The notes under the pieces: generated by a model
What the model was told of the DNA's origin: nothing
Seen by the model: only the letters and a program-made list of their open reading frames with translations
The model's database searches: none
Made by a program: the position numbers and the translations under genes
DNA from: an uncultured Hyphomicrobiales bacterium
Lineage (GTDB): Bacteria; Pseudomonadota; Alphaproteobacteria; Rhizobiales; Aestuariivirgaceae
DNA: 36,257 bases
NCBI GenBank assembly: GCA_903951595.1
Contig: CAJBCQ010000104.1
Coordinates: 1-36,257, forward strand
Direction: 5' to 3'
In this document: piece by piece, positions 14,806 through 17,403 of the stretch
Layout: the number at the start of each line of letters is the position of its first letter
How positions within the stretch are numbered: the stretch's first letter is position 1

Positions 14806-15165
14806 ATGGGTCAAGTTATCATTGCGGTCAATGATCGCAGCTACACCATGCAATGCGCCGATGGTGAGGAAGCCCAGCTTTCCACGCTTGCCGGGGTTCT
14901 GGACAAGGAAGTTACCCAGATTCGCGATCAGGTGGGTGCGGTTGGTGATTTGCGCCTGCTGCTGATGGCCGGGTTGATGCTTGCCGACAAGCTTGCCGAA
15001 GCTGAACGCCGCACGCAAGCCATGCGCGAGCAGATCGAAGGCTTGCGCCAATCGCGAAGCGAAGCTTTTCATCACGGCCGTTCGCTCGAGGAAGATTTGG
15101 CCGACCGGCTGGACGAGGCCTCCGAAAAACTGGAAGAATTGGCGATGGCTTTCAACGGCTCGTAA
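14806..15165 (+). CDS. zapA: Cell division protein ZapA
   Basis: This 119-residue protein matches ZapA, which bundles and stabilises FtsZ filaments at the division site. The N-terminal beta-rich domain includes VIIAVNDRSYTMQCADGEEAQL and is followed by the LLLMAGLMLADKL helix. A long C-terminal coiled coil (about residues 62-115) is dominated by Glu, Arg and Leu. In most proteobacteria zapA is followed by the 6S RNA gene and fau. Here that order is kept only after about 1.4 kb of inserted toxin-antitoxin genes. Confidence 0.92.
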   Translation: MGQVIIAVNDRSYTMQCADGEEAQLSTLAGVLDKEVTQIRDQVGAVGDLRLLLMAGLMLADKLAEAERRTQAMREQIEGLRQSRSEAFHHGRSLEEDLADRLDEASEKLEELAMAFNGS

Positions 15166-15261
15166 ATGTGCGCGCTGTCCTGCCCATCAGGCGGATTTTT
15201 CTGGGGCAGAGCGGATCAATGACCACGAGATAATCAGTCCGGTGTGATGGCGATTTGCCTC

Positions 15262-15290
15262 TTGATTTTTGTAAGGCATTACCTTACAGA
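15262..15290 (+). promoter_or_regulatory. HigBA promoter/operator with 6-bp palindrome
   Basis: A perfect inverted repeat GTAAGG-N5-CCTTAC (15271-15287) lies between a -35-like TTGATT (15262-15267) and a -10-like TTACAG (15285-15290; spacing 17). The palindrome overlaps the promoter core and ends ten bases before the higB start, as expected for autorepression by HigA or the HigBA complex. Confidence 0.65.
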
Positions 15291-15296
15291 TCATGT

Positions 15297-15575
15297 ATGA
15301 TCCGGACCTTGAGAAGCAAGCCATTGCGGAACCTGTTCAACAAAGGTGATGCGGCAGGCATCAAGCCGGAATGGTTGAAGCGGGTGCGGCTGATCTTGAA
15401 CGTCCTAGATGATGCAACCCGACCTGAGGATTTGGACATGCCCGGCCTTGGTTTTCATCCACTAACAGCGAACCTTTCGGGCCGTTATTCGGTCAAGGTG
15501 TCCAGAAACTGGCGCATTACATTTGGTTGGGACGAGGGGCCGGTGGACGTGGATTTGGAGGATTATCATGGATAA
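15297..15575 (+). CDS. higB: HigB/RelE-family toxin (type II)
   Basis: The 92-residue basic product (MIRTLRSKPLRNLFNKGDAA...) has the ParE/RelE-like fold pattern of HigB/plasmid-maintenance killer toxins. It shows LRNLFNKGD near the N-terminus, VLDDATRPEDLDMPG in the middle, and the C-terminal YSVKVSRNWRITFGWDEG plus VDLEDYH. Family members are ribosome-dependent mRNA endonucleases. The ATG at 15297 immediately follows the palindrome-bearing promoter; an upstream in-frame start at 15255 would place coding sequence through that promoter. The toxin gene precedes and overlaps the antitoxin gene by 8 bases, the reversed order characteristic of higBA. Confidence 0.92.
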   Translation: MIRTLRSKPLRNLFNKGDAAGIKPEWLKRVRLILNVLDDATRPEDLDMPGLGFHPLTANLSGRYSVKVSRNWRITFGWDEGPVDVDLEDYHG

Positions 15576-15873
15576 AGCACAACGTAGTGAGGCTTTCGCT
15601 CCTGCACATCCGGGTGAGCTTCTGGCTGAAGTGGTATTGCCTGCCACGGGCAAATCCCGCAGCGAGATTGCGCGCCTGCTCGGCATCTCGCGGCAGTCGC
15701 TGTATGACATCATCGATTGCAAACAATCGGTGACGCCAGCCATGGCGGTGCGGTTCGGCAAGCTGTTCGGCAATGGGCCGGATTTGTGGCTGAACATGCA
15801 GGCGCGGCATGATTTATGGATCGCCAAGCGGGATGTGGATGTGTCGGATATTCCAACTCTGGCGGTTGCTTGA
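15568..15873 (+). CDS. higA: HigA family antitoxin, XRE-type DNA-binding protein
   Basis: The 101-residue product carries HPGELLAEVVLPATGKSRSE followed by a helix-turn-helix (IARLLGISRQSLYDIIDCKQ, about residues 34-53) and ends with GPDLWLNMQARHDLW. These are all typical of HigA/VapI antitoxins. It should neutralise HigB and repress the operon at the palindrome 15271-15287. The start at 15568 overlaps the end of higB by 8 bases, which suggests coupled translation. The stop lies one base from the end of the converging HicB gene, so two complete modules meet tail to tail. Confidence 0.93.
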   Translation: MDKAQRSEAFAPAHPGELLAEVVLPATGKSRSEIARLLGISRQSLYDIIDCKQSVTPAMAVRFGKLFGNGPDLWLNMQARHDLWIAKRDVDVSDIPTLAVA

Positions 15874-15874
15874 T

Positions 15875-16231
15875 CTATAAGGTTGGGCCTGTGTCCTGCC
15901 CATCCAGATAACGCCGCAGTGCATCGCTGACCACGCTGTTGAGATTGAGGCCCCGGCGTTTTGCGTAGAGCATGGCGCGGCGGTGGAGATCACGGCCGGG
16001 GCGCACATTGAAGCTGCCTTTTAGTGGAATGTCGGCTTTTCGGCCTTCGGCTTGGCATAGGTTGAGATAATCATCCACGGCCTCTTGGAACGCCAGCTTC
16101 AGACTCTTGGCATCGCTGCCTTCATAGGTGACAAGATCGCGGATGAATTCAAGCCGGCCATGCAGCACCTCATCCACATCGCTGTATTCGATGGAGCCGT
16201 AATAGCCCTTATATTCCAAGATCGTGCTCAT
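15875..16231 (-). CDS. hicB: HicB family antitoxin
   Basis: This 118-residue protein has the HicB layout. The N-terminal partial RNase H-like domain has YKGYYGSIEYSDVDEVLHGRL and DLVTYEGSDAKSLKLAFQEAV. The C-terminal ribbon-helix-helix region is GSFNVRPGRDLHRRAMLYAK followed by LNLNSVVSDALRRYL (about 72-112). It is expected to bind and inhibit HicA and to repress the operon. The start codon overlaps the hicA stop (ATGA at 16228-16231), giving the normal hicA-hicB order. The end is head-on against higA with one base between the stops. Confidence 0.92.
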   Translation of the reverse strand: MSTILEYKGYYGSIEYSDVDEVLHGRLEFIRDLVTYEGSDAKSLKLAFQEAVDDYLNLCQAEGRKADIPLKGSFNVRPGRDLHRRAMLYAKRRGLNLNSVVSDALRRYLDGQDTGPTL

Positions 16232-16482
16232 ATCAGGTCTTCCTCCGCCAGCATGTGGACCAGCTCTTCTATCACATACATCTTCACGATGTTGCCGGGG
16301 TGCGGCTTGTGCAGCGCGATGGTTGGCGCTGTGGCATGAACGAAGCGCCTTCTGGAGCCGCCGGTTCTTCCTGCGGTTGCCTCGCGGTAGCCAAGCCCTT
16401 CCAGCAACCTGACAAGCTCATCCCAAGTGAAGTCTCTCGGTCTGTTTTTCAGCCGGGCAATAAGCTTGTCACGTTTGGTCAT
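16228..16482 (-). CDS. hicA: HicA family toxin, mRNA interferase fold
   Basis: The 84-residue product (MTKRDKLIARLKNRPRDFTW...) fits the HicA double-stranded-RNA-binding fold. It has WDELVRLLEGLGYREATAGRTGGSRRRFVH, then the TIALHKPHPGNIVKMYVIEEL strand-helix part. HicA toxins cleave mRNA using a histidine, usually in GSH. Here that motif reads GGSRRRF, while a later HKPHP motif is present, so the catalytic residue may be shifted or the toxin weakened. The ATG at 16482 has AAGGAA eight bases upstream. A longer reading to 16536 is unlikely. Confidence 0.88.
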   Translation of the reverse strand: MTKRDKLIARLKNRPRDFTWDELVRLLEGLGYREATAGRTGGSRRRFVHATAPTIALHKPHPGNIVKMYVIEELVHMLAEEDLI

Positions 16483-16503
16483 GTCGTCATTTCCTTCACG
16501 GCA

Positions 16504-16532
16504 AGCATGCACTGGATGGTGTGAAATTGCAA
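16504..16532 (-). promoter_or_regulatory. Possible promoter for hicAB
   Basis: On the minus strand TTGCAA (16532-16527) and CATGCT (16509-16504) are 17 bases apart, about 20 bases upstream of the hicA start. The -10 match is poor, and the GCATGC palindrome may instead be part of a HicB operator. This is a low-confidence assignment by eye. Confidence 0.3.
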
Positions 16533-16619
16533 CCATATTCAGTTGCTTTTTTTCAGCTGGCAGAACCGCTCATGATTTTCCCGGTGGCAATCGGGGCGGG
16601 GGGCGTTTATGGTTGGAAA

Positions 16620-16760
16620 TGGCGTTGCTGCCCGGTGCGAGAAGGTACATTTTCCCTGGGCCTATAACGATCTCTAGGGAGCTGTCCCTGCCTCGGGCCC
16701 TGGTCCTTGGCACATGGTTCCCACCTACTTAACGTAGGACCCGGGATCGCCACTTTCACG
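16620..16760 (+). ncRNA. ssrS: Probable 6S RNA
   Basis: The stretch between the toxin-antitoxin block and fau contains no credible gene but can fold end to end. TGGCG (16620-16624) pairs with CGCCA (16748-16752), and CCCGG (16631-16635) pairs with CCGGG (16741-16745). Inner segments rich in CCTGGG/CCTGG and GGGAGCTGTCCC give the long interrupted hairpin expected of 6S RNA, which binds sigma-70 RNA polymerase. The position directly upstream of fau (5-formyltetrahydrofolate cyclo-ligase) is the conserved place of ssrS in Proteobacteria. Ends are approximate. A covariance-model search would settle it. Confidence 0.72.
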
Positions 16761-16791
16761 GCCACGGCGGCTTCGCCACCTTACATTTGCG

Positions 16792-17403
16792 ATGAGTATG
16801 ATTTTGCCCGACACAAGTCCGCCGCCTGCTGATCTGGATGGCCTGAAACGGCAGGCGCGGGGGGCGGCTGGCAAGCGGCGCAACCAGTTGCATGAGGCGG
16901 GCAAGGACACCGCTGGCTTGGCATTGGCGGCCACGGGCCTTGGATTTACCGGGCTGAAGCCGCCGCGCATCGTTTCGGGTTTTTATCCTTTCCGCAGTGA
17001 AATCAGCACCTTGCCGCTTTTGGCGCGGCTGGCGGGGGAAGGTTGGCAAACCGCTTTGCCTATTGTGCTGGGGCCAGGGGTGCCGCTGTTATTTCGCGCT
17101 TGGGCACCGGGGGATGCGATGGGCAAGGGCGAGTGGGACATTCCCATTCCGCTGGATTCTGCCCCGGAAGTTGAGCCGGATGTGCTGTTTGTGCCGCTTT
17201 TGGCGTTTGACCGGGCCGGTTATCGGCTGGGCTATGGCGGCGGGTTTTATGATCGCACGCTGGCGAAGCTGCGCGCCATCAAGCCGGTTATCGCTATCGG
17301 CACGGCCTATGCGGGCCAGCAGGTAGACTTTGTGCCGCGCGGGGAATATGACGCACCGCTCGATTGGATTTTGACTGAGGAAGGCCCCATCGCGTGCGGT
17401 TGA
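16792..17403 (+). CDS. fau: 5-formyltetrahydrofolate cyclo-ligase
   Basis: The 203-residue product converts 5-formyl-THF to 5,10-methenyl-THF with ATP. The N-terminal basic segment LKRQARGAAGKRRN, the substrate-binding VSGFYPFRSEI, and the C-terminal DVLFVPLLAFDRAGYRLGYG...YDRTLAKL region are the usual family blocks. The glycine-rich GYGGGFYDRT motif binds ATP phosphate. The start ATG at 16792 is followed two codons later by another ATG, so the exact start is uncertain by two residues. The stop overlaps the next gene by 10 bases. Its position after the 6S RNA candidate follows the conserved zapA-ssrS-fau order. Confidence 0.94.
   Translation: MSMILPDTSPPPADLDGLKRQARGAAGKRRNQLHEAGKDTAGLALAATGLGFTGLKPPRIVSGFYPFRSEISTLPLLARLAGEGWQTALPIVLGPGVPLLFRAWAPGDAMGKGEWDIPIPLDSAPEVEPDVLFVPLLAFDRAGYRLGYGGGFYDRTLAKLRAIKPVIAIGTAYAGQQVDFVPRGEYDAPLDWILTEEGPIACG

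Follow-up and report, generated by a model that had tools for sequence, protein, structure and literature searches.

The closest described counterparts of the locus analyzed here are the HigBA and HicAB toxin–antitoxin (TA) modules, the TAS islands and the ZapAB–SsrS–FAU1 array. HigBA modules share with the first module of the locus a leading toxin gene, a gene overlap, a palindromic operator (a likely one in our case) and sequence relatives with solved structures. HigA of P. aeruginosa binds a palindromic operator with the core TTAAC..GTTAA, as given in the available part of PMC6987408, whereas the core in the window reads TGTAAGG..CCTTACA. HicAB modules are comparable with the second module in the leading toxin gene, the HicA fold, a HicB of the ribbon-helix-helix type and an upstream inverted repeat. 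Unlike characterized HicAB, which have a catalytic His, the HicA found here carries Arg44 and an invariant LHxPHP, and the sequence search returned no solved chain for its subfamily. Closely spaced TA modules of different classes are already known (PMC2701414, available portion), and the locus resembles the TAS islands of that portion in the adjoining of two TA pairs of unlike class; in contrast to them, it comprises just two modules, both at a single variable junction, and the genome's remaining HicA and HigA genes are found on other contigs. The flanking genes keep the order zapA, 6S RNA, fau of the proteobacterial ZapAB–SsrS–FAU1 array described in the accessible text of PMC7641849. According to that text, ssrS lies beside ZapA in beta- and gammaproteobacteria and not in alphaproteobacteria, whereas zapA–6S adjacency proved common, and often interrupted, in the alphaproteobacterial order of the window.

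The window, the whole stretch of 36,257 nucleotides analyzed here, constitutes a single contig in a draft assembly of 2.7 Mb and 264 contigs, and all comparison genomes lie outside its genus. Our reading, which we consider probable, is that higBA and a hicAB of divergent type, two unrelated type II modules, were gained horizontally at a permissive zapA–6S site, each as a self-contained and autoregulated unit and not as parts of a composite element. The left flank is zapA (14806..15165, plus strand; PF05164, 65.8 bits). It is followed on the same strand by higB, encoding a RelE-like HigB toxin (15297..15575; PF05015, 45.6 bits against a cut-off of 27), and the antitoxin gene higA (15568..15873; TIGR02607, 82.8 bits against 47.7), whose product has HigA relatives in the PDB; HigB likewise matched PDB HigB chains by sequence (E 4e-11). 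On the minus strand, the toxin gene hicA (16228..16482; PF07927, 38.4 bits against 27) precedes the antitoxin gene hicB (15875..16231; PF05534, 44.1 bits against 21), which has relatives of at most 85% identity; the hicA assignment is also backed by alignments and fold. To the right lie the 6S RNA gene ssrS (16622..16777, plus strand) and, directly after it, fau, encoding 5-formyltetrahydrofolate cyclo-ligase (16792..17403, plus strand; PF01812, 102.1 bits; TIGR02727, 137 bits).

These coordinates and family scores agree with the tail-to-tail arrangement of higB–higA and hicA–hicB between zapA and 6S/fau that had been described in an earlier note on this DNA. The last stops are indeed one base apart, that of higA occupying 15871–15873 and that of hicB 15875–15877, and the toxin/antitoxin order is normal, with the toxin gene leading in both modules and overlaps of 8 bp in higBA and 4 bp in hicAB. 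All four proteins pass their family cut-offs, PF05015 and TIGR02607 together with an antitoxin gene downstream of the toxin placing the first module in HigBA, and PF07927 and PF05534 with the toxin gene first placing the second in HicAB. The 6S candidate, whose failure would have spoken against the earlier reading, scored 61.4 bits with RF00013 against a gathering threshold of 46.4, and 127.6 bits with the covariance model of the family. The open reading frame list and the family scan revealed only the four TA genes in the zapA–6S gap.

To analyze the genomic context, the DNA around other zapA genes of the family was collected; zapA is present in 61 of 69 family genomes, the window's own included, and the sample comprised 61 loci (L031–L091, two from one genome). 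For 6S RNA, a covariance model of 13 sequences was run on 60 of these loci and then on L091, with matches in 46; none was found in the other 14 of the 60, nor in L091. The zapA stop lies 44–213 bp from 6S in 19 of these 46 loci and 394–4691 bp in 17 (L040, which has N runs, being entered as 394 bp), and 6S is on the opposite strand in the remaining 10; the counts omit the 14 loci without 6S and L091, two of which, L042 and L084, reach no further than 257 bp from zapA. In other families of the order, a 6S match was present in 18 of 20 further loci and, in all of these 18 but L252, L255 and L240 (that makes 15), followed the end of the ZapA match by no more than about 250 bp, with distances computed by hand and several ZapA matches partial. 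The compact site in relatives of both family and order suggests that the compact zapA–6S order is likely ancestral and that the TA block of the window was gained, which supports the earlier proposal that the modules are inserted. The same note had named the presence of these genes in close relatives as ancestral content as the contrary case; in 60 family loci, the zapA–6S junction showed nothing related to any of the four TA proteins (E 1e-3). Composition was dropped as a sign of recent gain, since the GC and GC3 differences between modules and neighbors are too small for a recent transfer to be visible. In genus g3 (L066, L087, L088, L089, L090 and L091), most loci with ample flank showed no 6S match near zapA.

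The zapA–fau distance spans 172–6528 bp in 41 loci, the window included, and exceeds 600 bp in 22 of them; 15 more family loci have at least 3 kb downstream of zapA but no fau. The control junctions, with the window again counted, measured 399–733 bp for tkt–zapA (47 loci) and −9 to 27 bp for fau–ymdB (39 loci), a small control limited to neighboring pairs in which fau and ymdB overlap. Second in variability was ymdB–yebC, with about 4 kb in 7 of 24 family loci. The zapA–6S–fau interval was thus the most variable of the comparable neighboring junctions, in line with the insertion hot spot suggested before. As a separate observation, the ~4 kb ymdB–yebC loci (L040, L054, L057, L060, L065, L070 and L071) are similar in size throughout.

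Twenty open reading frames, picked from 155 listed in the inserts of relatives, were scanned against Pfam; 16 gave a match, to gamma-glutamyltranspeptidase, FeoB, CYTH-CHAD, autotransporter and MTTB families among others, and none of the 20 to a mobile-element family. This mixed cargo, together with the lack of TA relatives at the 60 loci, indicates that the variability of the junction is not specific to TA genes, and we read zapA–6S, from these comparisons, as a site that tolerates gene gain and rearrangement in the family of the window. A TA module pair as such adds little to this and is a local curiosity, ordinary modules among the unrelated cargo of relatives; of wider relevance is the spacer itself, tight in many relatives and, within one bacterial family, apparently open to the gain of genes. 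The 6S gene is reversed relative to zapA in genus g10 (L064, L067, L069, L079, L081) and genus g5 (L044, L045, L047, L072, L075), which suggests that the region is also a rearrangement breakpoint. A purK-like reading frame was spotted by eye downstream in the g5 loci L044, L045 and L075.

Each module has an operator-like palindrome upstream. The palindrome TGTAAGGCATTACCTTACA (15270..15288, plus strand), likely the HigA operator, has a related form upstream of higB in relatives, with the loose pattern in 15 and the strict pattern in 11 of 23 stretches (window plus 22 relatives), against shuffled means below 0.04. The inverted repeat GCAACTGAATATGGTTGC (GCAAC..GTTGC; 16529..16546, minus strand), likely the HicB operator, recurs upstream of hicA in relatives, 20 of 24 stretches (window plus 23 relatives) fitting the loose and 16 the strict form. 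The counts cover the loci with a placeable toxin start, 22 of 29 for HigA and 23 of 80 for HicB, and, as the patterns were drawn after viewing the sequences, they describe and do not test. By analogy with HigA of P. aeruginosa (PMC6987408, available part), both palindromes fit operators likely bound by the antitoxins. Promoter-like sites had also been attributed to each module; a consensus scan detected no sigma-70-type site upstream of higBA or hicAB, and what stands of this claim is the palindrome at each, common to relatives. Seven T follow the likely hicAB operator on the plus strand (window 16529–16553), just upstream of the 6S gene, and because of this T run the operator appears terminator-like on that strand. 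A 6S promoter motif derived from our own pattern fits 29 of 47 stretches and was dropped as a sign of an intact 6S promoter in the window, which falls outside the pattern.

We hypothesize that higBA and hicAB would each work as a self-contained, autoregulated unit, in which the antitoxin, alone or with the toxin, would occupy the module's own palindrome and repress it. Upon loss of the antitoxin, HigB would be expected, from its family membership, to cleave mRNA on the ribosome, and HicA to attack RNA. The literature search found no published description of HigB active-site residues. The tail-to-tail placement may allow two short units to fit one gap.

An integron cassette is recognized by an attC-like pair of core sites 40–150 bp apart. 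No such pair occurs within 15000–16800 on either strand, no long repeats flanking the insert were found, and the zapA–6S gap of the window holds no integrase or transposase gene beside the TA cargo. These results weigh against the possibility that a small mobile island or an integron-like cassette array delivered both modules at once, as would be suggested by the presence of modules of different class in a single gap and by the known clustering of unlike TA modules in genomes (PMC2701414, available portion). The pairing is also not conserved: a test of co-occurrence of the two modules elsewhere, proposed in the earlier note, found HigBA near HicB in 1 of 80 HicB loci (L205), where it is weakly related and placed head to head (divergent), and no pairing in 29 HicB and 29 HigA order-level loci besides the window's own, within flanks of about 1.5 kb. 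No plasmid record covers the insert, the 6 records that match at the DNA level covering parts of higA only. In the order sample of 397 genomes, HicB relatives are present in 34, the window's own included, with a best identity of 41%, and those at ~79–85% identity are scattered over Roseomonas, Azospirillum, Hyphomicrobiales and gammaproteobacterial records, a pattern that points to horizontal transfer; HigA relatives occur in 192 of the 397 genomes, with a best identity of 69%. Four other contigs of the window's genome carry additional genes of these families, two for HicA and two for HigA. A composite TA island was rejected in view of the lack of shared pairing, integrase and attC, and single delivery is very unlikely; we infer instead that the modules were acquired separately. 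The original observation is thus right and its insertion reading, at a junction compact in relatives, is supported, whereas the reading as a TA-bearing genomic island is not.

How the second gain might have come about is suggested by the search for a target duplication, which revealed a perfect 13-bp direct repeat, TGTCCTGCCCATC, bracketing higBA, with the left copy at 15176..15188 and the right copy at 15892..15904, inside the last codons of hicB. By this route, which we consider possible but doubtful, hicAB would have settled beside zapA before higBA entered the last hicB codons, either with duplication of a 13-bp target or through recombination at a 13-bp stretch of homology, leaving hicB with a new short tail. 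An equally long repeat arose near the higA stop in 5 of 20,000 dinucleotide shuffles, and anywhere in 15874–16621 in 40 of 20,000, and the tail of HicB diverges from those of its relatives at the repeat. However, the repeat was spotted by inspection as one among 12 direct-repeat families, and rejoining the flanks at it yields a hicB of 147 aa that lacks a proper end, reading on antisense into zapA without meeting a stop codon. The alignment of the left gap to hicB is weak, its gapped score being reached by 97 and its ungapped score by 19 of 3,000 shuffles, and the hicB ends of relatives exceed the shuffled 95% point in just 3 of 26 cases; past the 13-bp repeat, a remnant of hicB in the zapA–higB gap is thus not supported. 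A dispersed repeat left of higB was considered separately and discarded, as its 16-bp match in the ruvB–tolQ gap has a whole-genome E of 0.3 and is attributable to chance. Retention of the modules through joint action with 6S RNA or zapA in growth arrest would fit the position of the hicA start, 139 bp before 6S and divergent from it, and the terminator-like inverted repeat with its T run, which could shield 6S. Against this coupling, which we regard as extremely improbable, stand the functionally mixed cargo of the junction and its lack of related TA genes in the 60 other family loci; the present findings give no sign that the modules act on 6S RNA or zapA.

Separate gain of two self-contained modules remains our preferred reading, and the least ordinary part of the locus is its HicA. 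Two overlapping sets of relatives were aligned, 36 and 29 drawn from 80 loci, each with a HicA match of full or almost full length. Gly42, Ser43, Arg44, His58, Pro60, His61 and Pro62, among others, are invariant in the window HicA and the 29 relatives, and the combination of Arg44, His58 and His61 recurs in 37 of 37 sequences of the set with 36 relatives. The catalytic His where strand β2 begins, required at this column in characterized HicA toxins (available parts of PMC11594946 and PMC12297915), is absent, with Arg44 in its place in 30/30 and 37/37 sequences, whereas the two other HicA of the same genome have His there. The subfamily includes the window HicA (16228–16482, minus strand) and relatives in L152–L231 and at L266:554–808.

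The HicA structure was predicted with a pLDDT of 92.3, and both Foldseek matches at probability 1.00 were HicA. The model aligned with 5yrz_B (Z 6.8, rmsd 1.8, 56 aligned) and 6g26_E (Z 6.3, rmsd 2.3, 60 aligned), Z values below 8 making the fold match by itself modest. As HicA structures nevertheless rank first, the HicA fold appears to be kept and the catalytic residue not, and we file the window HicA, from alignments and model, in a divergent HicA subfamily and not with the canonical catalytic-His type. The protein may be active as a toxin, either through a shifted active site or by other chemistry. A literature search found no published HicA subfamily without this His, although one may still exist in print; PMC10865869 contains none of the residue terms sought. 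A combined scenario, in which a widespread HicA subfamily has an active site rebuilt around Arg44 and the His58/His61 of LHxPHP, zapA–6S is a true hot spot and higBA is nested in the hicB tail, seems unlikely as a whole; if the rebuilt active site is real, the RNA chemistry or target of this HicA may differ from those of every characterized HicA, a prediction that is directly testable. The HicA of phage mEp234 likewise lacks the His in its GSGRKF stretch and carries HEPHP.
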